The translations under genes were made by a program, and so were the position numbers. From Mycobacterium sp. (GTDB lineage: Bacteria; Actinomycetota; Actinomycetes; Mycobacteriales; Mycobacteriaceae), in the NCBI GenBank assembly GCA_020438845.1, contig JAGQTV010000052.1, positions 1-64,000 on the forward strand: DNA of 64,000 nucleotides, written 5' to 3'. Within the stretch, counting starts at the first letter, position 1, and each line of letters starts with the position of its first letter. The notes beneath the pieces were generated by a model, which did no database searches, had not been told where the DNA came from, and saw only the letters and a list, made by a program, of their open reading frames with translations. Shown in pieces: positions 50,669 through 61,580 of the stretch.

Positions 50669-52732
50669 GTGACAACGGCGACGTCGATCTACATCGCCTC
50701 CCCGGAGGGGGAGACCGGTAAGTCCACCATCGCGCTGGGCCTCTTGCGCCGGCTGGCTGCATTGGTTCCGAGAGTCGGGGTTTTCAGGCCGATAACCCGA
50801 CGGGAGGACCGCGACTACATCCTCGACCTGCTGCTGTCGCAATGCGATTCGGGCCTGTCCTATGAGCAGTGCGCGGGAGTGAGCTACCAGCGATTGCACC
50901 AAGACCCCGACGGTGCGATCACCGATATCGTCGACCGCTATCACGCGGTGGCCGACCTGTGCGATGCGATGGTGATAGTGGGTTCTGACTTCACCGATGT
51001 CGCATCGCCGACTGAACTCGCTGTCAATGCGCGCATCGCCGCCAATCTTGGTGCGCCGGTGCTGCTGTCGGTGCGAGCCACCCGCCGCACGCCGGCGGAA
51101 ATCGCCGACGTCATCGAACTGTCCCTGTGTGAGCTTGGTCACCAGCACACCCATACGGCCGCGGTGGTGGCCAACCGCTGTGAGCGGGACAAGATGGCTG
51201 CCGTCCAAGCAGCATGTGCCGACCTGGGTCCACCGGTCTACGTGCTGCCCGAAGAGCCGCTACTCGTGGCGCCGACGGTGGCTGAATTGGCGGCAGCAAT
51301 CGACGGCGTCCTGGTTCACGGCGATCCCTCGCTGATGTCCCGGGAGGTACAGGACATGATGGCGGCGGGGATGACAGCCGAGCATGTGCTGGAGCGGCTT
51401 ACCGAAGGCGTTGCCGTCGTCACGCCGGGGGACCGTTCCGATGTTGTCATGGCGGTCGCTGGAGCTCATGCCGCCAAGGGTTTTCCCTCGTTATCGGCGA
51501 TCATCCTCAACGGAGGTCTGCCGCTGCACCGCGAGGTTGCCCGCCTGGTGACCGGCATCGGACTGCGGTTGCCGATCGTCGCCACCGAATTGCGCACCTT
51601 CGAGACCGCCACCGCGATGGCCAACACCCATGGCCGGGTGACCGCAGCGTCGCGACGCAAGATCGACACCGCGATCGAACTGGTTCAGCGCTACGTCGAC
51701 GTGGACGATCTGATCGCCCAACTTGCGATTCCGATCCCGACTGTCACCACGCCGCAGATGTTCACCTACCAGTTGATGGAGCGCGCGCGGGCCGACCGTC
51801 AGCGCATCGTGTTGCCGGAGGGCGATGATGACCGAATCCTGCAGGCCGCCGGTCGGCTGTTGCTGAGAGGAGTGGCCGACCTGACCATCCTGGGCGAGGA
51901 GTCTGCAGTTCGTACCAGGGCAGGTGAGTTGGGTGTCGACCTCGACGGAGCAACCATCATCAACCCGGAGACCAGCGAGTTGGTCGAGGAATTTGCCGTC
52001 CAGTACGCCCAACTGCGTAGGCACAAGGGAGTGACGCTCGAACACGCCCGTGAGATCGTCCAGGACGTTTCCTATTTCGGCACGATGTTGGTGCACAACG
52101 ACATTGTCGACGGCATGGTGTCCGGAGCGGCCCACACCACGGCCCATACCGTCCGACCGGCCTTCGAGATCATCAAAACCCAACCGGATTGCTGCACGGT
52201 GTCGAGCATCTTCTTGATGTGCCTCAGCGACCGGGTGCTGGCCTACGGCGACTGCGCGATCGTTCCGGACCCCACCGCCGAGGAACTCGCCGATATCGCG
52301 ATCAGTTCGGCCCGCACCGCTGCACAGTTCGGAATCGACCCGCGGGTGGCGATGCTCTCGTATTCCACGGGTGACTCTGGAAGCGGTGCAGGGGTCGACA
52401 AGGTAAGGACTGCAACCGAACTCGTACGACAACGCGAACCCGACCTGCTGGTCGAGGGTCCGATCCAGTACGACGCCGCGGTCGACCCGATCGTGGCGGA
52501 AGCGAAGATGCCCGGGTCGCTTGTCGCAGGCAAGGCGACCGTGCTCATCTTCCCGGACCTCAACACCGGCAACAACACCTACAAGGCGGTGCAACGCAGT
52601 GCGGGGGCGGTGGCGATCGGCCCGGTGCTGCAAGGTTTGAACAAACCGGTGAACGATCTGTCTCGCGGCGCTCTGGTCGACGACATCGTCAATACCGTTG
52701 CCATTACCGCGATCCAAGCTCAGGGGTCCTGA
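50669..52732 (+). CDS. pta: Phosphate acetyltransferase, long form
   Basis: Pta interconverts acetyl-CoA and acetyl phosphate. The 687-residue product is the long form: an N-terminal BioD-like P-loop domain ([19 protein letters not shown]), a DRTGG-type middle domain (about 210-330) and the C-terminal catalytic PTA_PTB domain (about 360-685: [76 protein letters not shown]). The GTG at 50669 begins [15 protein letters not shown]. Its TGA shares its A with the ackA ATG (TGATG), so the acetate-overflow pair is tightly coupled. Confidence 0.96.
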
Positions 52733-53919
52733 TGCCTACGACGGTTTTGGTGCTCAACTCCGGATCCTCGTCGCTGAAATATCAACTGGTGCAGCCGGTA
52801 ACCGGTGAATCGTTGTTCGACGGGATCGTCGAACGGATCGGCGAGGAAACGTCGCGGGCCAAGCTGAACATCGCCGGCGAGCGGATCGTTCGCGAGGGGC
52901 CGGTGCCGGATCACGAAGCCGCACTGCTGCTGGCCTTCGACCTGGTGGCCGAGACCGGGCGGAGCCTGGGCGGGCTGGGGTTGGTGGCGGTGGGCCACCG
53001 GGTCGTGCACGGTGGACCGAACCTGTACCGGCCGACGGTCGTGGACGACGCGTTGCTCGATGAGCTTCGGGAATTGGCGCCGTTGGCACCACTGCACAAT
53101 CCGCCCGCGGTGCTGGGCATCGAGGTGGCCCGCAAACTGCTTCCTGATCTTCCGCACATCGCGGTCTTCGACACGGCGTTCTTCCACGACCTCCCTGCGG
53201 CGTCGTCCACCTATGCCATCGACCGGGATGTGGCCGCCCGGTGGAAGATACGGCGCTACGGATTCCACGGGACGTCACACGATTACGTCAGCCGCCGAGC
53301 CGCAGATTTCCTGGGTTCCCCGGTCACCTCGTTGAACCAAATCGTGCTGCACCTCGGTAATGGCGCCTCGGCGTCGGCGATCGCCGCCGGCCGGCCGGTG
53401 GACACCTCCATGGGCATGACGCCGATGGAGGGTCTGGTGATGGGCAGCCGGTCCGGAGACGTAGACCCGGGCATCATCAGCTATCTGTGGCGCGAGGCGG
53501 GGATGGGGGTCGATGAAATCGAGACCATGCTCAACCGGCGTTCCGGGATGCTGGGGTTGTCCGGCGACGTCGACCTGCGCGAGATCCAGCGGCGTATCGA
53601 CTCCGGTGACGAGGTGGCTTTGCGGGCCTATCAGGTGTATATCCACCGCTTGCGCAAATACGTCGGTGCCTACTTGGCCGTGTTGGGGCATGTCGACGCC
53701 ATCAGCTTCACAGCGGGCGTTGGCGAAAACCAGGCGGCGGTTCGCCGTGACGCGCTGAGCGGGCTGGGTCGTTTCGGTATCGAGATCGACGAAGACCTCA
53801 ACGCCAGCCCCTCACGGGAGCCGCGGCGCATTTCGACGGATAGATCGGCGACCGCTGTGCTGGTGATTCCGACCGACGAGGAGCTTGCCATCGCGCAGGC
53901 CTGCATGACGGTGGTGTAG
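52732..53919 (+). CDS. ackA: Acetate kinase
   Basis: AckA makes acetate and ATP from acetyl phosphate, completing the Pta-AckA pathway. All family motifs are present in 395 residues: [13 protein letters not shown] (adenosine/phosphate), [18 protein letters not shown] (catalytic Asp), [50 protein letters not shown] and [15 protein letters not shown]. The ATG overlaps the pta stop by one base. With the AMP-forming ligase at 7352-9142 the organism has both routes between acetate and acetyl-CoA. In M. tuberculosis pknG follows directly; here an island of about 7.7 kb lies between. Confidence 0.97.
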
Positions 53920-54014: not shown

Positions 54015-55070
54015 ATGTGCACAGGAATTCGTCTGACGGCCGCCAACGGCGACGTCGTATATGCGCGGACGATGGAGTTCGATACCGAGCTGCCGGGGTT
54101 GATCGGTTACGTCCCCCGCGGGCAGGAGTTTTTCGGTGATACAAACTCCGGAGCCGACGGGATGAGGTGGACCAACAAGTACGGTTTCGGCGGCAACGTG
54201 GGAATCCTCGGCGGGAACCACTCGCTGGGTTCCGATGGGATAAACGAGAAGGGCCTCGTGGCAGGTGTTTTCAACCTCCCCGGGTTCACCGAGTTCTCAC
54301 CGATTTCGGACACCAATCGGACGAAAGCGATCGCCAGTTGGCAGATGGTGCTCTATCTGCTCGGCAACTGCGAAACGACCGACGAAGCCGAGGAGGCTCT
54401 GCTGTCCGGCGAGGTCGTCGTCGTCGACACCGAATTCCCTTTCACGCCCACGACGAAAGGGCAGCTGCCGCTTCACCTGCGCGTCGGCGACTCCGGCGGT
54501 AGGACGATCGTCTGCGAATGGCACACTCCGAATCAGCCTCCGACGATCACCGAGTCACCAAGCGGCTGTGTCACGAATCCGCCGGGCTTCGATTTTCACC
54601 TGAACAACTGGGAGCACTACAAATCCCTCTCCCCGTACAACCCGTTCGGTCCGATCACGGCCGGCGGCTCTCAGACTTACAAGATCACCATGGGGAACGG
54701 CTATGTCGGCATGCCAGGCGGTAGCAACTCGCCGGACCGCTTCATCCGCGCCAGCCTTTACTCGCGTGATGCCTACGCAGCCGCGACCGGCGCCGATGCA
54801 GTCTGGACGGCCTGGCACATAATGAATAACTTCGACGTGCCGCGCGGAATTATGCGTAACGTCACCGACACCGGCATTGAGTCGACGGAATACACGCTCT
54901 GGACCAGCGTCGCTGACACGAAGAACCTCAAGTACTACTTCCGCGTCTATGAGAACCCCGCTATCTACGAACTCGATCTCAAAGATCAGGACCCCTCCGG
55001 CACTACCGTGCTGATCGATGACAGGCCCACCACCGCGCCGATTGTCACTGTTCCAGTGCGGTTCACGTAA
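54015..55070 (+). CDS. Choloylglycine hydrolase / linear amide C-N hydrolase-like Ntn enzyme
   Basis: A 351-residue N-terminal-nucleophile hydrolase. The mature enzyme would begin at Cys2 (M|CTGIRLTAANGDVVYARTMEF), the catalytic nucleophile of bile-salt hydrolases, penicillin V acylases and acid ceramidase relatives. Other conserved parts are an Asp/Arg-like pocket (RTMEF), NEKGLVAGVFNLPG, the CVTNPPGFDFHLNNWEHYK segment with the Asn needed for catalysis, and a late Arg (LYSRDAYAAA). There is no signal peptide. Substrates could be N-acyl homoserine lactones, penicillin V, conjugated bile acids or other amides. It lies between ackA and the DAB operon and is separated from the latter by a strong hairpin. 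Confidence 0.9.
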   Translation: MCTGIRLTAANGDVVYARTMEFDTELPGLIGYVPRGQEFFGDTNSGADGMRWTNKYGFGGNVGILGGNHSLGSDGINEKGLVAGVFNLPGFTEFSPISDTNRTKAIASWQMVLYLLGNCETTDEAEEALLSGEVVVVDTEFPFTPTTKGQLPLHLRVGDSGGRTIVCEWHTPNQPPTITESPSGCVTNPPGFDFHLNNWEHYKSLSPYNPFGPITAGGSQTYKITMGNGYVGMPGGSNSPDRFIRASLYSRDAYAAATGADAVWTAWHIMNNFDVPRGIMRNVTDTGIESTEYTLWTSVADTKNLKYYFRVYENPAIYELDLKDQDPSGTTVLIDDRPTTAPIVTVPVRFT

Positions 55071-55199: not shown

Positions 55200-55808
55200 C
55201 TAGACACACTCCAGTAGTGAGTCGCTGGGCTCACCGAGCGCGCCGACTGTAGCGTGGGCCGATATGCGGCCCTGGTGATCGGTTGTGGCGCATACGATTC
55301 CGCACCTTCCGGCATCGACTCTCCCGGCGATCAAGGGTGAGTGCTCCAGCAACGACATCCCGACTGAGACGACGTGGGCCGAGCTGAGTTCCGCGGCGGT
55401 GGTGGCAGGTGTGGGCAGCCGCAGGATCGAGGACAGAGCCTGTTCGATGGTAAGCCTGCTGGCCCCGTTGGGGAGTTCCGCGTTCTGCCAGGCCCGTAAC
55501 GCTGCGCGCATGGCCGTGCACTCTTGGTGGCCTAGTATGACGATCAGCGGAGTATTCAGGTTGTCGACGGCGTGCTCCAATGTTGCGAGCACCCCGGTGT
55601 CGACGACGTGGCCCCATGTGCTTACGTCGAGCAGTGCACCCTGGCTCTGGCCGAACACCATCTCGCTGGAGAGGTGGGTATCCGCACAGCGGAATACTGC
55701 GGCTACCGGGGCGCCCTGGTGCACGGACTTATGCCGTGCCCGCTTCCGGATGGAGGGCACTTCGTTACCTGCGCGCAGTTGTTGCCAGATGCTCATTGGG
55801 TTGGACAT
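55200..55808 (-). CDS. Beta-type carbonic anhydrase, atypical
   Basis: A 202-residue member of the beta-carbonic anhydrase family. Zinc ligands are Cys41, His94 and Cys97 (FRCADTHLSSEM and LGHQECTAM). The active-site dyad Asp-Arg of canonical enzymes is changed: Asp43 is kept but the following Arg is His45 (CADTH instead of CADSR). It is the fourth gene of the DAB operon, 39 nt after the PII-like gene. Interconversion of CO2 and bicarbonate, or a regulatory/structural role, would fit the context. Whether it is active with His in place of Arg is unclear. Confidence 0.85.
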   Translation of the reverse strand: MSNPMSIWQQLRAGNEVPSIRKRARHKSVHQGAPVAAVFRCADTHLSSEMVFGQSQGALLDVSTWGHVVDTGVLATLEHAVDNLNTPLIVILGHQECTAMRAALRAWQNAELPNGASRLTIEQALSSILRLPTPATTAAELSSAHVVSVGMSLLEHSPLIAGRVDAGRCGIVCATTDHQGRISAHATVGALGEPSDSLLECV

Positions 55809-55847
55809 GTCGGTGAACCTTTCTGTGATCAGTTGAACTATCGGTGA

Positions 55848-56183
55848 TTAGGAGAAGTAGTCGGGCCGGCTGACGTAGGTCTCGGTTGCGAACATCACCC
55901 CCGACGATGCGTCCAGCAGGGGGCGCAGACCGGCGAGTAGGGCGTCCGCCTTGGCTTCGGGGATGACGGTGATGAGCAGTTCCAGGGTCGCCTGCTGGTT
56001 GAACAGCAGACGGCCTTGGTGGTAGCCGCGGTGGCCGAGTCCGGAGACACCAGACAAGCTGGTGAAGCCGGTCGCGCCGACGCTCTGGATGAGATCACGT
56101 ACTGCCGGTGCGTCGCTGCCGGCTACGACGACCTCGATCTTGATCATCTTCGTCAGCGCCTTGCTCATGGTCGGTGTGGTCAT
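55848..56183 (-). CDS. PII-like signalling protein linked to the DAB operon
   Basis: A 111-residue small protein with a ferredoxin-like PII-type pattern: KMIKIEVVVAGSDAPAVRDLIQS, then TGFTSLSGVSGLGHRGYHQG (where PII has its T-loop), ATLELLITVIPEAKADALLAGL, and SSGVMFATETYVSRPDYFS at the C-terminus. PII-like proteins encoded beside bicarbonate transporters (SbtB, CPII) bind nucleotides and sense carbon status. It overlaps the dabA stop by 4 nt (ATGA), so it is made stoichiometrically with the transporter and is likely its regulator. The first 12 residues (MTTPTMSKALTK) hold two further possible ATG starts. Confidence 0.82.
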   Translation of the reverse strand: MTTPTMSKALTKMIKIEVVVAGSDAPAVRDLIQSVGATGFTSLSGVSGLGHRGYHQGRLLFNQQATLELLITVIPEAKADALLAGLRPLLDASSGVMFATETYVSRPDYFS

Positions 56184-58750
56184 CGAATCATCTCCTTCTG
56201 GTTGAGAATTGCCGTGCTGAAATCACTTGTGCGCCAGGCGCGCCAACCCGCCGGCGTCCATCGCTGCCACTGCTGACCCGCGTTCTCCCGCGCGGCCACA
56301 GTGAGCCATCCATTGCCGAAGAGTCGCTGCAGGATTGGGTTGCGCTCGACCACCGTGTCGATCCTGCCCAGGGGGGCCTGAATCACCGCGAGCAGTCGCA
56401 TGGGTTCGTGCACCAGTCGCTCACTGGTGGCCACCGACTGCCAGGGCAGGCCGAGGCGGAGATCGCCTTCGTGTCCAGCGATCACGCCGGCGGTGCCGAC
56501 GACGTTGTGGATCGTCTTGGTACCTGCTCCGAACACCTCCGGGGCCACAGTGGAGAAGTAGTACTGGCAGTTGATCCACTGGGCTACCACCAGTGGCGCG
56601 GTCAGGATGGTCTCCAGGGCGCTACCGTCCGGGTCGACCTCCGCGGAATATGAGTGCAGGAAGACGCGCCGTTGCAGGTTCTTGCCGCTGGAGACCTCGC
56701 GTGGGGCGACCAGGAAGGCGGCGTTTCCGGCAAGGCCCCACTCGGGGTACACCTGGGCCCAGTCGGCCGACCTGCCTGCCACATGTCGGAAGGCGCTGGG
56801 GTCCGACATGTCGGCTGGGGCGCCGGGCAGCAAGGCGCTGCGTTCGGCCGCCAGCGCTGCACCGGCCCGGGCGAGGTCGGCTCGCAAGGTATCGACCTGG
56901 GCCTGGTGTGAGGGAGGGACCAGGTGGGTGTCGAGCAGCGATACCCGATCGGTAGCGGTGTCATGCTGTGCAGCAAGGAAATACGTCTCCACCGGGATGT
57001 CGATGCCCAGTAGCCGCAACTCGGCCCGCACCTCCGGCTGGTTGAGGATTGTCGCGGCAGTACGCGCGTTGGGTCCGCCGGCCTGCCCGCCGCAGGCTCC
57101 GCAGTCCAGAGACGCCTGGTACGGGTTGTTCTCGGTGGTGCTCCCGTGCCCGGACAGGACCACCAGCCGGCCGAAGTCGCGCGTAAGCCCCATGGTGGTC
57201 AGCGCCACCTGGCCGAATAAGGCCCGCTGGTCCAGCGGCAGGTCACTCACGTTGAGTTCCGTCGGCGCAGCGGGCGCCGCGAGGTCGAGCAGCCGGCGCC
57301 GTAGGTTGCTGCTGGCCGCTGGGGCCAGAGTCTTCGCCGCCGCCAGCGGGGCGGCCACCCAACCCGCCGCCTCGGCGAGGCTGAAGGGCGCCGCCAGTGC
57401 GTCTTTAGCGGCGTGGAAGGCCGACTCAGCGCCGGCCAGGCCCCGGATACCGGCGATCCTGCGCTCTGCCGCAGCCTCGGCGTCGGGGACCGGTGTCTCG
57501 CGGATGTCGTGGCTGGGTTCGATCAGCACCGGGCACAGATCGCAGGGTTCGCCGCCAAGCAGGTCGGTGAACCGGATAGCGACCGCGAAGAATCCGGCGA
57601 AGCCGAACGTCTGATAGCCCGGGAGAGACTCAAGGTGGCGGCGCAGGCCCTCAGATCGGGTGTCGATGCAGGCGACAAGCTGGGTGTGCGGCCGGCCAGC
57701 AGGTGAGGCCTCAGCCGGTTCGGACAGCATGTCGAGTAGTCCGTCTCGGTAGTGGCCTTCGAAGGCGTTTTGCCACAGCATCTCTCGTGCCGTGACCGGT
57801 AGGGCGGCGAGCACCCGGGCTGCAGCGGCCATGCCGGTCTCACTCACCTCGCCGACACCCCAGACCTGCGCCAGCTGCGCCGCGCGCTCGCGGGCCGACG
57901 GAATGCGCTCTGCTGGCCGTTCGGCCGCCCGGGAACCGGTGTGCCCGGCCAACAGTACGGCCTCGTAGCTCAGTCGCATCGCCAGATAATCGATCAGGTC
58001 GATGCCGGTCTCCCGCTTGGCGCGCCACAGGATGTGGGCAGCCCAGCCGGGCAGGCGGGTGAGATGGGCCTGCAGGTATGCGGAGCGTGCGGCTTCGTCG
58101 ACACCCAGATCCGAAAGTGCCTGTAAAACAGCGTCATCCGGGCGCTTGGCAATCCAGCGAAGCCGGACCCTGATCATGCGGGACAAGCTGGGATCGGCAT
58201 GAGCGAGTCCGCGCCAGGCGCTGTAGAAGCCCTTCTCGCGGCCCGGCATCGGCCAGGCGGCCCCCCCGAAGAAGGCCGCCAACCACTTGGCGGCTTGGGC
58301 GTCGATGATTCCAGCCACCTCGGGAGCGATCTGTTCGGCCTGGGTGAGGTAGCGGCGCTGCGGTTGCGGTCCTGCGGTTCCGTGCAGCAGGTCACCACGC
58401 AGCAGCTCGGCCGGTGTGACTACCCGGTTGCCGAATTGGACGTCTTGCCCGGCCAGCAGGTTGGGGTACCGCTGTGCCAGCGCGCTGTCGAGGTCGGCGT
58501 CGGTGATGCGTCCCTGGCGGTAGAAGGTGCGGAATTCTTCGGCCGACAACGTCCCCCGGGTGCCATAGAGATCCGCGGCGCGGCGCACTGCCTGTTCGAA
58601 GGGCAGGGACTCAAACCCGGCCAGCGGGTTGACCGCGATGAAGGTCTCCAAGGGGTAGTGGGTGGGCAGCACTCGCGCTGCCAGTGCGATGTCGCTGCGG
58701 AGTTGCGAGCGTCGCTCGGCAACAGTGATTTCCGGGTGGGCGTTCGTCAT
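56180..58750 (-). CDS. dabA: DabA, inorganic-carbon accumulation protein (DUF2309)
   Basis: DabA is the cytoplasmic, carbonic-anhydrase-like subunit of the DAB system, which hydrates CO2 to bicarbonate in a one-way, ion-driven manner. The 856-residue protein has the family start (LPTHYPLETFIAVNPLAGFE). The zinc/active-site residues known from DabA, a C-x-D and a H-x14-C pair, appear as Cys361 and Asp363 (VACIDTRSEGLRRHL) and His535 and Cys550 (LSGHGSTTENNPYQ, then SLDCGACGG); spacing equals that of the Halothiobacillus protein as I recall it. The ATG at 58750 overlaps the dabB stop (ATGA); a longer upstream frame is ignored. DabA needs DabB for activity. Confidence 0.93.
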   Translation of the reverse strand: MTNAHPEITVAERRSQLRSDIALAARVLPTHYPLETFIAVNPLAGFESLPFEQAVRRAADLYGTRGTLSAEEFRTFYRQGRITDADLDSALAQRYPNLLAGQDVQFGNRVVTPAELLRGDLLHGTAGPQPQRRYLTQAEQIAPEVAGIIDAQAAKWLAAFFGGAAWPMPGREKGFYSAWRGLAHADPSLSRMIRVRLRWIAKRPDDAVLQALSDLGVDEAARSAYLQAHLTRLPGWAAHILWRAKRETGIDLIDYLAMRLSYEAVLLAGHTGSRAAERPAERIPSARERAAQLAQVWGVGEVSETGMAAAARVLAALPVTAREMLWQNAFEGHYRDGLLDMLSEPAEASPAGRPHTQLVACIDTRSEGLRRHLESLPGYQTFGFAGFFAVAIRFTDLLGGEPCDLCPVLIEPSHDIRETPVPDAEAAAERRIAGIRGLAGAESAFHAAKDALAAPFSLAEAAGWVAAPLAAAKTLAPAASSNLRRRLLDLAAPAAPTELNVSDLPLDQRALFGQVALTTMGLTRDFGRLVVLSGHGSTTENNPYQASLDCGACGGQAGGPNARTAATILNQPEVRAELRLLGIDIPVETYFLAAQHDTATDRVSLLDTHLVPPSHQAQVDTLRADLARAGAALAAERSALLPGAPADMSDPSAFRHVAGRSADWAQVYPEWGLAGNAAFLVAPREVSSGKNLQRRVFLHSYSAEVDPDGSALETILTAPLVVAQWINCQYYFSTVAPEVFGAGTKTIHNVVGTAGVIAGHEGDLRLGLPWQSVATSERLVHEPMRLLAVIQAPLGRIDTVVERNPILQRLFGNGWLTVAARENAGQQWQRWTPAGWRAWRTSDFSTAILNQKEMIR

Positions 58751-60306
58751 GACCATGCTCCTGTCAGGTGGGTGGGAAGTGCTTGTGCGGGGGGCGTGAT
58801 GTGGCCGGCGCTCAGGGCGCGGGCGTAGAGGGCTTTCTGGAACCTGGCGGCACTCGGTGCCCGTAGCGCGGCGGCTAGGCCACCCAGGATCGCCAGCGCG
58901 GTGCCGGTGATGAGCCACGTCGTGGTGGTCGGCAATGCGACCGCAGGCAAGTCGGGGGTGAGGAATCCGGTGACAGTGGAGACCAGCCAGACGTAGCCGA
59001 TTCCGGCCGGCAGCAGGAAGGCGGCTGCCGTCGCGACCCCGCGAGCTCCAGGCTGGCGGGCCAGCCAGCCCGTGGTTGCGGCGGCTCCGGTCACCCAGGC
59101 GAAGATCAATAACGCCCATTCGGCGGTGTGGTCACCGGGCTTCATCGGCACCAGGACGAGACCGAGGATGATCGAAGCTGCCGGCAGCACAAGGGCGGGA
59201 ATCGCAAACCGGCGCGGTCGCTCCGTATGCGGCAGTGCCCTCATCCGGCGCCGGTGGGCGATCGCCGACCCCGAGGACAGGAACAGGGTGGCCTTGTAGA
59301 AGCCGTGCGCGAACAGGTGGAACACCGCTGCTGCCCACAGTCCCAGGCCGCAGGTGAGGATCATGAAGCCCATCTGAGCCATGGTCGAATGCGCCAGCGC
59401 CCCTTTGATGTCGGGCTTTACCAGCATGATGACGGCGCCGTAGGCCAGTGTGGCGATGCCGGCGACGACGATGAGCGCCTGGGCCACACCCGCCGCGGTC
59501 ACGACGGGGCTGAGCTTGATGAGCAGGATGGCTCCGGCGTTGACTACGCCGGCATGAAGCAGTGCTGACACCGGAGTCGGTGCGGCCAGCGTGGCGGGCA
59601 GCCAGCGGTGAAATGGCATCTGGGCCGAACGGGACAGGGCGGCCGCGACCACCAGACAGGCGGCCAGGGCGACAAGCGGTCCGTCCAGCGGTTCGCCCTG
59701 GAGGGCGCGTAGGTCGACGGTGCCCTGACGGACCGCGATCAACCCGAACGCCGACCACAACGCCAGGTCGCCGATCAGGAACGCCTTGGCGGTCCTACGC
59801 ACGCCGTCACGCGCCGACGGCAGCTGCCGATAGGTGCCCAGCAGTAGGCACAGAGCCACACCGGCTGCCGTCCAGCCCACAGCCAGAACAACGAGCGTCT
59901 GTGCTGTCATCAGCGTGGCCGAGGCGCTGGTGAGCAAACCGGCACCCGCGCTGAACCATCCGGCCCGGCTGTCTTCGGCGAGATAGCGGATGGCGAAGCT
60001 CTGCACGATCGCGCTGACGCCGTAGACCAGCACGAGCAGCACTGCCGCGAGGCGGTCAGCCGAGACGGCAACGACCGGCTGTTGTCCGATGTTCACCGAC
60101 ATTGCTGCCAGGTGACCTCCGGCTGAACTGATCAGCAGGACCACTGCGCCGAGGAAGCCCAACGCGGCCGTACCTGCACCGAGTCGGCCGACGAGCCGAT
60201 GCCGGCCTATGGCAGCTGCTGCCACCGTCGCTGCCAATGGCCCGATCAGCAAGGCCATCAAAATTCCATTCAGGACCGGACTTTCGGTCGCCGTAGTAGT
60301 CAACAT
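58747..60306 (-). CDS. dabB: DabB, NuoL/MrpA-like membrane subunit of the DAB system
   Basis: A 519-residue membrane protein with about 12-14 helices, belonging to the proton/sodium-translocating NuoL-MrpA-NdhF superfamily. Landmarks: AVSADRLAAVLLVLVYGVSAIVQSFAIRYL, SAQMPFHRWLPATLAAPTPVSALLHAGVVNAGAIL (the conserved quinone-oxidoreductase TM7-8 block), MLVKPDIKGALAHSTMAQMGFM, and LFAHGFYKATLFLSSG. It is not a respiratory complex I subunit: there are no other nuo genes and dabA follows with a 4-nt overlap. DabB would couple ion movement to CO2 hydration by DabA. The ATG at 60306 is 7 nt after a -10 box, so the message is probably leaderless. Confidence 0.92.
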   Translation of the reverse strand: MLTTTATESPVLNGILMALLIGPLAATVAAAAIGRHRLVGRLGAGTAALGFLGAVVLLISSAGGHLAAMSVNIGQQPVVAVSADRLAAVLLVLVYGVSAIVQSFAIRYLAEDSRAGWFSAGAGLLTSASATLMTAQTLVVLAVGWTAAGVALCLLLGTYRQLPSARDGVRRTAKAFLIGDLALWSAFGLIAVRQGTVDLRALQGEPLDGPLVALAACLVVAAALSRSAQMPFHRWLPATLAAPTPVSALLHAGVVNAGAILLIKLSPVVTAAGVAQALIVVAGIATLAYGAVIMLVKPDIKGALAHSTMAQMGFMILTCGLGLWAAAVFHLFAHGFYKATLFLSSGSAIAHRRRMRALPHTERPRRFAIPALVLPAASIILGLVLVPMKPGDHTAEWALLIFAWVTGAAATTGWLARQPGARGVATAAAFLLPAGIGYVWLVSTVTGFLTPDLPAVALPTTTTWLITGTALAILGGLAAALRAPSAARFQKALYARALSAGHITPPAQALPTHLTGAWS

Positions 60307-60352: not shown

Positions 60353-60442
60353 TTAGAAAATCCTATGAATGTTGGACAGGTGTCGTCGGCGTAACTGCGA
60401 TGCATGTTTCGTGTCATGGCAGTGCAGATCTACACTTCGGTA

Positions 60443-60739
60443 ATGCCCGAGTGGACGTTCCTGACCAACCACGCCCACACGTTGCTGTGCATTGCCCGGG
60501 ATCCGGGTATTCGGCTGCGCGATGTGGCCGAGCGGGTAGGTGTAACCGAACGTGCTGCCCAGCGCATCGTCAGCGACCTAGTCGAGGCCGGCTACCTGGA
60601 CCGCCTTCGAGACGGCCGGCGCAACCACTACCAGGTCCGGGCCGACCGCCCGATGCGCCATCCAGTGGAGCGCGGCCACGACGTCGGCGAAATCCTGGCG
60701 GTGCTCCATGAACCAGAGAGTTCGCCAACCCCGGGGTAA
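60443..60739 (+). CDS. Winged-helix DNA-binding regulator, divergent from dab operon
   Basis: A 98-residue one-domain regulator. The N-terminal helix WTFLTNHAHTLLCIARDPGIRL is followed by the recognition region RDVAERVGVTERAAQRIVSDLVEAGYLDRLRDGRRNHYQV, a MarR/ArsR-like winged helix, and a short tail (HDVGEILAVLHE). No metal- or ligand-binding cysteines are seen. The ATG at 60443 lies 6 nt after a TACACT -10 box (60431-60436), so it is probably leaderless; two upstream ATGs (60404, 60416) are less likely. It is divergent from dabB and its gene overlaps the next one by 32 nt. Inferred role: repression or activation of the dab genes. Confidence 0.85.
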   Translation: MPEWTFLTNHAHTLLCIARDPGIRLRDVAERVGVTERAAQRIVSDLVEAGYLDRLRDGRRNHYQVRADRPMRHPVERGHDVGEILAVLHEPESSPTPG

Positions 60740-61580
60740 GTCAATCGACTACCGCGGCAGCCTGATCGCGGTGGGAACCCGCCACGGAAAGCAATTGCAG
60801 TTCGCGCCGGCCTTCGCCGCCGTCCTCGGTGCTCGCGTGATCGCACCACCGGATCTCGATACCGATAAGTTCGGCACCTTCCCTGGCGAGGTTCCACGAA
60901 CCATGAGCGCCCTGGACACCGCGCGCGCCAAAGCGCTGTTGGCCGTCCAGGCCAGTGGTTCGCGATATGCGCTGGCAAGCGAGGCCAGCTACGGACCGCT
61001 TCCCGGGACCGGGATCCCGGGTCACGAAGAACTACTGGTCTTCATCGACCACGCCCGCGGGATCGAACTGGTGGAGGGCTATCGGACCACCGCGATCCCT
61101 GGATTCGGCCAGCGCATCCGAGACTTCAGTGACTTGAAACCGGGCATCGTGGGCGCCTTGCCCGACCAAGCCCTGATCGTGCGGCCCTCCGTCGATAGCC
61201 GCCCGGGAGACATCGTCAAGGGCATCACTACGACCGAACGACTCCAAGGTGCCGTCATCAGTGCCGCTGGGCGGTCATCAGATGGTCTGGCCCTCGTTGA
61301 GCCGGACCTTCGCGCGCATCACAATCCGACCCGCCGTCAGGTCCTGGCCAGGCTGGCCGAAACCATGGCGCACCGACTCGCCACCCGCTGCCCCGGGTGC
61401 AGTGCGCCCGGATTCGGCCGAGTAGACACTGAACCCGGTCTGCCCTGCCGTGCGTGCGCAACGCCGACACCGCTGAGCCGCCACCAGATCCACAGCTGCT
61501 CAGTCTGCACGCATGACGAGATCCACCCAGTCGCCGAACCGGCTGCTGATCCCCGCTGGTGCCCTGAATGCAACCCCTGA
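60708..61580 (+). CDS. DUF6671 zinc-knuckle protein
   Basis: A 290-residue soluble protein of the DUF6671 type. The first 215 residues form the conserved core (LIAVGTRHGKQLQFAPAFAA, DTDKFGTFPGEVPRTMSALDTARAKA, ASEASYGPLPG, EELLVFIDH, DQALIVRPSVDS, VEPDLRAHHNPTRRQV). The C-terminal 65 residues carry four CxxC knuckles (Cys228/231, Cys247/250, Cys264/267, Cys285/288), enough for two zinc ribbons. Biochemical function is unknown. Its start lies inside the end of the winged-helix gene (32-nt overlap), so the two are co-expressed, opposite to the dab operon. It may help the dab cluster or be a passenger. Confidence 0.83.
   Translation: MNQRVRQPRGKSIDYRGSLIAVGTRHGKQLQFAPAFAAVLGARVIAPPDLDTDKFGTFPGEVPRTMSALDTARAKALLAVQASGSRYALASEASYGPLPGTGIPGHEELLVFIDHARGIELVEGYRTTAIPGFGQRIRDFSDLKPGIVGALPDQALIVRPSVDSRPGDIVKGITTTERLQGAVISAAGRSSDGLALVEPDLRAHHNPTRRQVLARLAETMAHRLATRCPGCSAPGFGRVDTEPGLPCRACATPTPLSRHQIHSCSVCTHDEIHPVAEPAADPRWCPECNP

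Follow-up and report, generated by a model that had tools for sequence, protein, structure and literature searches.

Inorganic-carbon pumps of the DAB type pair a NuoL-like membrane subunit, DabB, with a vectorial carbonic anhydrase (CA) subunit, DabA, and have been studied mostly in autotrophs. The first 64,000 nucleotides of contig JAGQTV010000052.1 (the window), from a Mycobacterium sp. genome of 4.53 Mb in 118 contigs (GCA_020438845.1), encode homologs of both subunits of the DAB2 pump of Halothiobacillus neapolitanus (DabA2/DabB2, PDB 9rd0), with the same zinc ligands, Asp-Arg dyad and NuoL-like proton-path residues. Unlike DAB2, the mycobacterial locus adds a PII-like protein and a beta-CA-like protein with a degenerate catalytic site (hereafter CAL), has a different tunnel-gate residue in DabA and lies in a genome in which no RuBisCO was found. 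By gene content, residues and DabB phylogeny the locus is of the DAB type (DAC), from which pump activity in mycobacteria can be predicted, and CAL, judged by its altered active site, is not an ordinary carbonic anhydrase.

The PII-like gene has precedents. PII likewise follows dabA in the DAB1 locus of H. neapolitanus and in the NuoL-YbcC-PII operons of COGNAT clade B (PMC4633670, PMC5700660); the first of these sources places the gene in a carboxysome-linked locus, and the second reported the linkage of PII to NuoL-like/YbcC (DabB/DabA) operons in 2017. Unlike the mycobacterial module, these loci are described with no mention of a CA-like gene in the relevant parts of the two papers, and DAB1 includes an additional small membrane protein. 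Because the PII linkage was reported in 2017 (PMC5700660), the dabB-dabA-PII operon is already published and the CA-like part alone looks new; no report of a CAL-type gene at DAB loci was found among the matches listed in the open-access literature. MpsAB of Staphylococcus aureus also comprises DabB/DabA homologs that provide a heterotroph with inorganic carbon (PMC8552792, PMC6689103), but it is a proposed Na+/HCO3- symporter (PMC13144422) in a host without CA (PMC8552792), and the term PII is absent from PMC8552792. Cyanobacterial SbtA-SbtB resembles the present locus in pairing a PII-like protein with an inorganic-carbon transporter, SbtB shutting off SbtA (PMC8438413), although SbtA is an unrelated transporter.

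A reading made from the letters of the window alone (the sequence-only reading) had described four genes in the order dabB, dabA, PII-like gene and CA-family gene, placed between ackA and pknG. Translations and Pfam matches, all four of which exceed the curated cut-offs (PF00361, PF10070, PF00543 and PF00484), bear out this order; the dabA start codon lies within an ATGA overlap with dabB, the junction of dabA with the PII-like gene is a second ATGA, and CAL follows after 39 nt. The location between ackA and pknG is likewise correct (Table 1), and the absence of the module from M. tuberculosis is based on PMC8552792, in whose account that species has only CA homologs. The same reading had interpreted the four genes as a module that supplies bicarbonate with the help of a working CA. 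Of this proposal, the DAB core, the PII-like protein and their conserved linkage stand, and a working CA is not supported: the window CAL, like most of its clade, has lost both active-site arginines and the glutamine, and two other beta-CAs with intact sites are encoded elsewhere in the same genome.

CAL matches the Pro_CA family with 65.7 bits against a cut-off of 25.7, its AlphaFold model has a pLDDT of 87.9, and among solved structures it is closest to 2a5v and 1ym3 (E 3e-27), which we take to be the M. tuberculosis CanB-type beta-CA Rv3588c. CanB-type sequences keep all eight active-site positions compared here (Q32, C41, D43, R45, R63, H94, C97 and Y176 in CAL numbering), whereas CAL keeps only some. 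The eight sites read QCDRRHCY in 42/42 canonical rows (40 distinct sequences) and in 0/69 CAL representatives, which were clustered at 97% from 98 copies on 97 stretches (71 distinct) because the unnamed and named sets share some genomes. In the window CAL, C41, D43, H94 and C97 are kept and the catalytic motif is Cys-Ala-Asp-Thr-His, with Gly32, His45 and Ser63 replacing Gln, Arg and Arg. At least one active-site arginine is gone from every representative and both are gone from 62; the dyad residue Arg45 persists in 5/69 (against 42/42 canonical rows), which rules out the statement that every CAL is without the dyad arginine, and Arg63 and Gln32 persist in two and nine, respectively. The zinc site has fared differently, all three ligands being present in 66/69 (His94 in 69, Cys41 in 67 and Cys97 in 66, with Asp43 in 67).

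CAL has also gained residues of its own. Arg40 (67/69), Ser63 (67), Trp65 (68), Trp107 (69) and Cys173 (67) are new and near-invariant, although 54 of the loci came via peptide patterns containing Ser63, Trp65, Cys41 and Asp43, so that the counts for those four residues are biased toward them. Loss of the arginines is equally apparent in the 44 CAL rows from a pattern-free search, where Arg45 is gone in 39 and Arg63 in 43. Trp107, which is absent from canonical CAs, is found in all 69 representatives, as are His94 and Gly189. On the tree, CAL forms a single clade (support 100) whose stem is long (0.93), and position 45 has changed at least 22 times among 69 CAL and 10 CanB rows; this tree and the one below come from quick searches, and their support values are SH-aLRT only. 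Zinc cysteines are also gone in the CALs of loci L064, L074, L075, L145 and L065, which are of the M. gordonae type apart from one member of a tandem pair in genome G026.

Despite its altered site, CAL accompanies the pump with great regularity. In a sample of 198 Mycobacterium genomes, spread evenly over a larger set, 45 carry dabA, and a full CAL occurs in 43 of these 45 and in none of the 153 dabA-negative genomes (Fisher p 1.4e-41); the weakest CAL match in this search has an E-value of 3.5e-51, the next match being a canonical CA at 4.7e-33. The sequence-only reading had proposed surveying mycobacteria for the four-gene order, and in this sample PII and CAL follow dabA in 43 of the 45. 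In one exception (G139) the contig ends just past dabA, and in the other (G074) dabA is interrupted and both PII and CAL are absent. The module is split across contigs in G032 and G106, and dabA lies in two open frames in G165 (the interrupted dabA genes of G165 and G074 are L107/L108). In the fetched dabA regions the four genes lie on the same strand, and 87 of 100 stretches hold all four, giving 61 loci unique by DabA; the order is found in 61/61 of these, which were selected for holding all four genes. Tight junctions are widespread among them, with the dabB stop codon in ATGA or GTGA in 59 loci and the dabA stop codon in 48, as judged from the upstream stop codon alone. A dabA-negative genome, G053, has abutting fragments of a helix-turn-helix (HTH) gene and of CAL (L246:6194-6562), which looks like a deletion scar.

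Beyond the genus sample, a pattern-led scan of a species-genome collection returned 54 CAL loci, all of them in Mycobacterium, Mycolicibacterium, Mycobacteriaceae or unassigned actinobacterial or actinomycete bins, and CAL is so far known from mycobacteria and such unassigned bins only. In a phylum sample of 396 genomes DabA was found in 23, two of them Mycobacterium. Among the 21 others, PII lies beside dabA in four (L209, L214, L215 and L219), and no CAL was found in the stretches, which span 1.5 kb on each side of dabA. A Nocardia plasmid carries DUF6671, HTH, dabB, dabA and PII with no CAL within the 16.7 kb read, and six non-actinobacterial plasmid records have dabA without adjacent PII or CAL in gene tables that are incomplete. 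Because DabA/PII loci outside the mycobacteria showed no CAL, CAL looks like a mycobacterial addition onto an older dabB-dabA-PII core.

Median dN/dS is 0.132 for CAL (20 close pairs), 0.155 for DabA (19), 0.192 for DabB and 0.038 for PII (18), from 18-20 pairs per gene that overlap and are not independent. CAL distances correlate with those of DabB (r 0.85) and DabA (0.78) without correction for common ancestry, and no internal stops were found among 44 CAL matches in 43 genomes. The CAL value of 0.132 indicates that the gene is under purifying selection and is maintained for some function. Its preservation, with key parts of the catalytic site gone, suggests that CAL now helps to control the pump rather than to catalyze.

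The pump core itself is well conserved. In a PDB sequence search with the window DabA, H. neapolitanus DabA2 (9rd0_A) was matched with an E-value of 1.3e-106, and alignment to this chain places Cys361, Asp363, His535 and Cys550, the zinc and catalytic residues listed in the sequence-only reading, together with the second dyad residue Arg365, which that reading had not listed. Cys361, Asp363, Arg365 and His535 are unchanged in 61/61 unique loci and Cys550 in 60/61. Alanine substitution of the corresponding DabA2 residues, R355A among them, compromised growth when CO2 was limiting (PMC13144422). The tunnel-gate Arg653 of DabA2 is Tyr or Phe in 60/61 mycobacterial loci (Tyr668 in the window).

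DabB was placed on a tree of 27 rows comprising 13 mycobacterial DabBs, seven DabBs encoded beside dabA in plasmid records, NuoL, two further Nuo subunits from the same genome and MrpA. A branch with support 100 separates all 20 DabB rows from the Nuo and MrpA rows, and the mycobacterial sequences group with dabA-adjacent DabBs of Pseudomonadota and one haloarchaeon. The sequence-only reading had stated that placement with Mrp antiporters, without conserved linkage to dabA, would count against it; the clade stands apart from MrpA, which does not support an Mrp-type antiporter identity, and the linkage is conserved. Of ten NuoL positions, six are kept (Asp178, His254, Lys305, His334, His338 and Lys342), in the window and in 11/11 aligned mycobacterial relatives, and two more, Glu144 and Lys399, are replaced here as they are in the other aligned DabBs. 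The explanation favored below is weakened by the ion-pair residues, which are unlike those of NuoL (Lys229 is Arg; Arg175 is Leu or Ala, Leu in the window), and by a PDB search in which eight NuoL-type chains score above the solved DabB2 chain, which ranks ninth.

The PII-like protein scores 57.3 bits against PF00543 (cut-off 25), and its significant solved relatives are limited to 5d4n (E 1.7e-16) and 5d4l, both at about 2e-16; we take 5d4n to be the carboxysome-associated CPII. It is the slowest-evolving member of the module, with a median pairwise identity of 0.79 and a dN/dS of 0.04, and the stretch SGxGHxGYxQGxLLFN is invariant in 24 aligned rows, including one Nocardia copy.

The explanation that we favor overall, with moderate confidence, is a proton-driven DAB pump, gated by PII and feeding heterotrophic carboxylases, with CAL as a zinc-binding pseudo-carbonic-anhydrase that serves as partner or sensor. 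DabB would conduct protons inward while DabA hydrates CO2 in one direction, raising cytoplasmic bicarbonate, which would then feed a heterotroph's biotin-dependent and anaplerotic carboxylases rather than RuBisCO. Ordinary carboxylases are the likely clients because RuBisCO is not associated with dabA: it occurs in 28/198 genomes, namely in 6/45 with dabA (6.4 expected) and 22/153 without (p 1.0, from genome lists matched by eye), which speaks against it as the client of the pump. The PII-like protein is predicted to sense bicarbonate or adenylates and to switch DabAB activity as SbtB does that of SbtA. CAL would be a repurposed beta-CA relative in which the zinc residues mostly remain but the arginines that support CO2 hydration, and in most members the glutamine, are gone; Asp43 may cap the zinc and leave the protein non-catalytic, so that it could act as a bicarbonate- or CO2-responsive or structural partner of DabA, PII or both while sparing the cell the leak of a working CA. 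Such a leak of the bicarbonate pool through a freely reversible CA has been argued for elsewhere: one study found no growth benefit in combining a pump with a CA and argued that carbon brought in by the pump would be lost as CO2 through the CA (PMC8552792). A disabled CA fits this argument, although the genome keeps two intact CAs, and from the leak argument and the control of SbtA by SbtB we infer that PII and CAL are control parts. More tentatively, CAL could be a dedicated non-catalytic, zinc-bound sensor that works with PII in gating a proton-driven DAB, in which case the operon would hold one beta-CA-family protein that depends on the proton motive force and one that only senses.

Vertebrate CA-related proteins (CARPs) belong to the alpha class, whose fold is unrelated to that of beta-CAs. 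As an analogy only, CARPs VIII, X and XI are inactive CAs that aid a transporter, enhancing MCT1 (PMC6609565). How futile cycling is prevented is a key open question for DAB pumps (PMC13144422), and the mycobacterial DAB has two linked candidate control proteins; with its occurrence in 45/198 Mycobacterium genomes, pump control can be put to the test in a heterotroph. If the pseudoenzyme reading is true, CAL represents a conserved pseudo-carbonic-anhydrase encoded next to a carbon pump; it is the part of the locus worth following. Named CAL carriers include opportunistic pathogens. A gene annotated as "carbonic anhydrase" at such a locus should not be assumed to encode an active enzyme.

Several observations weigh against an inactive CAL and would favor an active CA with a rearranged site, interconverting bicarbonate and CO2 for carboxylases alongside DabAB. 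The protein scores above the PF00484 cut-off and mostly keeps its zinc ligands (66/69) and Asp43 (67/69), and the conserved Arg40 beside the zinc cysteine could replace a lost arginine, for instance that of the dyad, and leave residual activity. Four of the 69 CALs, in a clade with M. vanbaalenii-type sequences, retain Cys-Asp-Arg-His-Cys (with Ser63 and no Gln), and two of these also retain Tyr176. Loss of the glutamine is by itself weak evidence of inactivity, since DabA2 works in vivo without it and M. tuberculosis Rv1284 keeps its activity without an equivalent (PMC13144422). We nevertheless regard an active CAL as unlikely, given that both arginines are gone in 62/69, Gln32 remains in just nine, position 45 drifts freely, and the genome has two intact CAs. 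Arg45 in the four sequences looks like drift rather than retention because the same derived clade also has His, Leu, Gln and Pro at this position. Three of the 69 CALs miss at least one zinc cysteine, which speaks against activity and equally means that a zinc role, including the one in the pseudoenzyme explanation, is not general across CALs.

COS and CS2 hydrolases share the beta-CA fold, and CAL might use its retained zinc site on such a small molecule (COS, CS2 or a carbamate-like compound). Mostly retained zinc ligands and Asp43, altered CO2-site residues and the new Arg40, Trp65, Trp107 and Cys173 would all suit this proposal, but strict linkage to dabA and PII indicates bicarbonate metabolism and a zinc cysteine is missing in 3/69, which leaves it with little probability in our estimate. 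It is still less probable that PII and CAL are passengers with no role in the DAB pump. The module is found on a plasmid and at several chromosomal sites, and dabA occurs without adjacent PII or CAL in the six plasmid records and, within short stretches, in the majority of the 21 DabA-bearing actinobacterial genomes from outside the mycobacteria, as would suit passengers; against this, PII is the most conserved member of the module, CAL is under purifying selection, and a full CAL is restricted to dabA genomes in the genus sample. That CAL is a decaying copy on its way to being lost, as its missing catalytic residues and the CAL-HTH relic in G053 could suggest, is very improbable and is disfavored by its dN/dS of 0.13 (DabA 0.155), alongside which stand Trp107, His94 and Gly189 in 69/69 and the 44 matches free of internal stops.

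Table 1. Position, strand and basis of assignment of the module genes, the dabB promoter elements and neighboring genes in the window
Feature	Positions	Strand	Basis or remark
dabB, NuoL-like membrane subunit, 519 aa	60306-58747	minus	Translation; PF00361 E 2e-39
dabA, vectorial carbonic anhydrase subunit, 856 aa	58750-56180	minus	Translation; PF10070 E 3e-242
PII-like protein, 111 aa	56183-55848	minus	PF00543 E 2e-15; closest solved structures 5d4n, 5d4l
CAL (beta-carbonic-anhydrase-like, degenerate catalytic site), 202 aa	55808-55200	minus	PF00484 E 8e-18
-35 element TTGACA, dabB promoter	60343-60338	minus	Read from sequence
-10 element TATTGT, dabB promoter	60319-60314	minus	Read from sequence; 7 nt from dabB start codon
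Winged-helix regulator, start codon uncertain	60404-60739	plus	Divergent from dabB, 97 nt off
DUF6671 protein, cysteine-rich C-terminal part	60708-61580	plus	Overlaps HTH gene
Choloylglycine-hydrolase-like gene	54015-55070		Between ackA and module
ackA	52732-53919		Flanks module
pknG	63949-61664	minus	Flanks module, other side

The module occupies different genomic sites in different mycobacteria. It is flanked by glnE and glnA1 in 14/61 loci and by one of the two in five more, with a gene that is presumably canB nearby in 8/61 and TerC in 15/61; Pfam confirms GlnE, glutamine synthetase and TerC. In the nearest relatives of the window (L080, L088 and L114) the module adjoins glnA1, and in the genome of the window the glnA1-glnE gap (about 1.1 kb, L251) gave no match to a module protein. 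In M. aubagnense the whole module lies on a mobilizable plasmid of 23.7 kb (L230, NZ_CP122998.1), accompanied by TerC, HTH, DUF6671 and a gene with a CBS domain. Rfam and tRNA scans of the window returned no matches.

Upstream of dabB, the arrangement TTGACN-18 nt-TANNNT-7 nt-start codon (59 ATG, 2 GTG) is found in 61/61 unique loci, which are related by descent and not independent cases; shuffled sequences yield the promoter pattern in 0.3/61 on average. From this promoter geometry the dabB transcript is probably leaderless. The winged-helix and DUF6671 genes also lie inside the ackA-pknG interval, and the divergent winged-helix protein probably controls the conserved, apparently leaderless dabB promoter. 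An HTH homolog is found somewhere within the fetched stretch at 54/61 loci, the window included, and at 19/61 it is on the strand opposite dabB and at least 70% identical. DUF6671 is present within the fetched stretch at 23/61 loci, again including the window, as well as on the Nocardia plasmid; its model has a pLDDT of 86.9, and its invariant SEASY motif, together with cysteines near the C-terminal end, is suggestive of a zinc protein.

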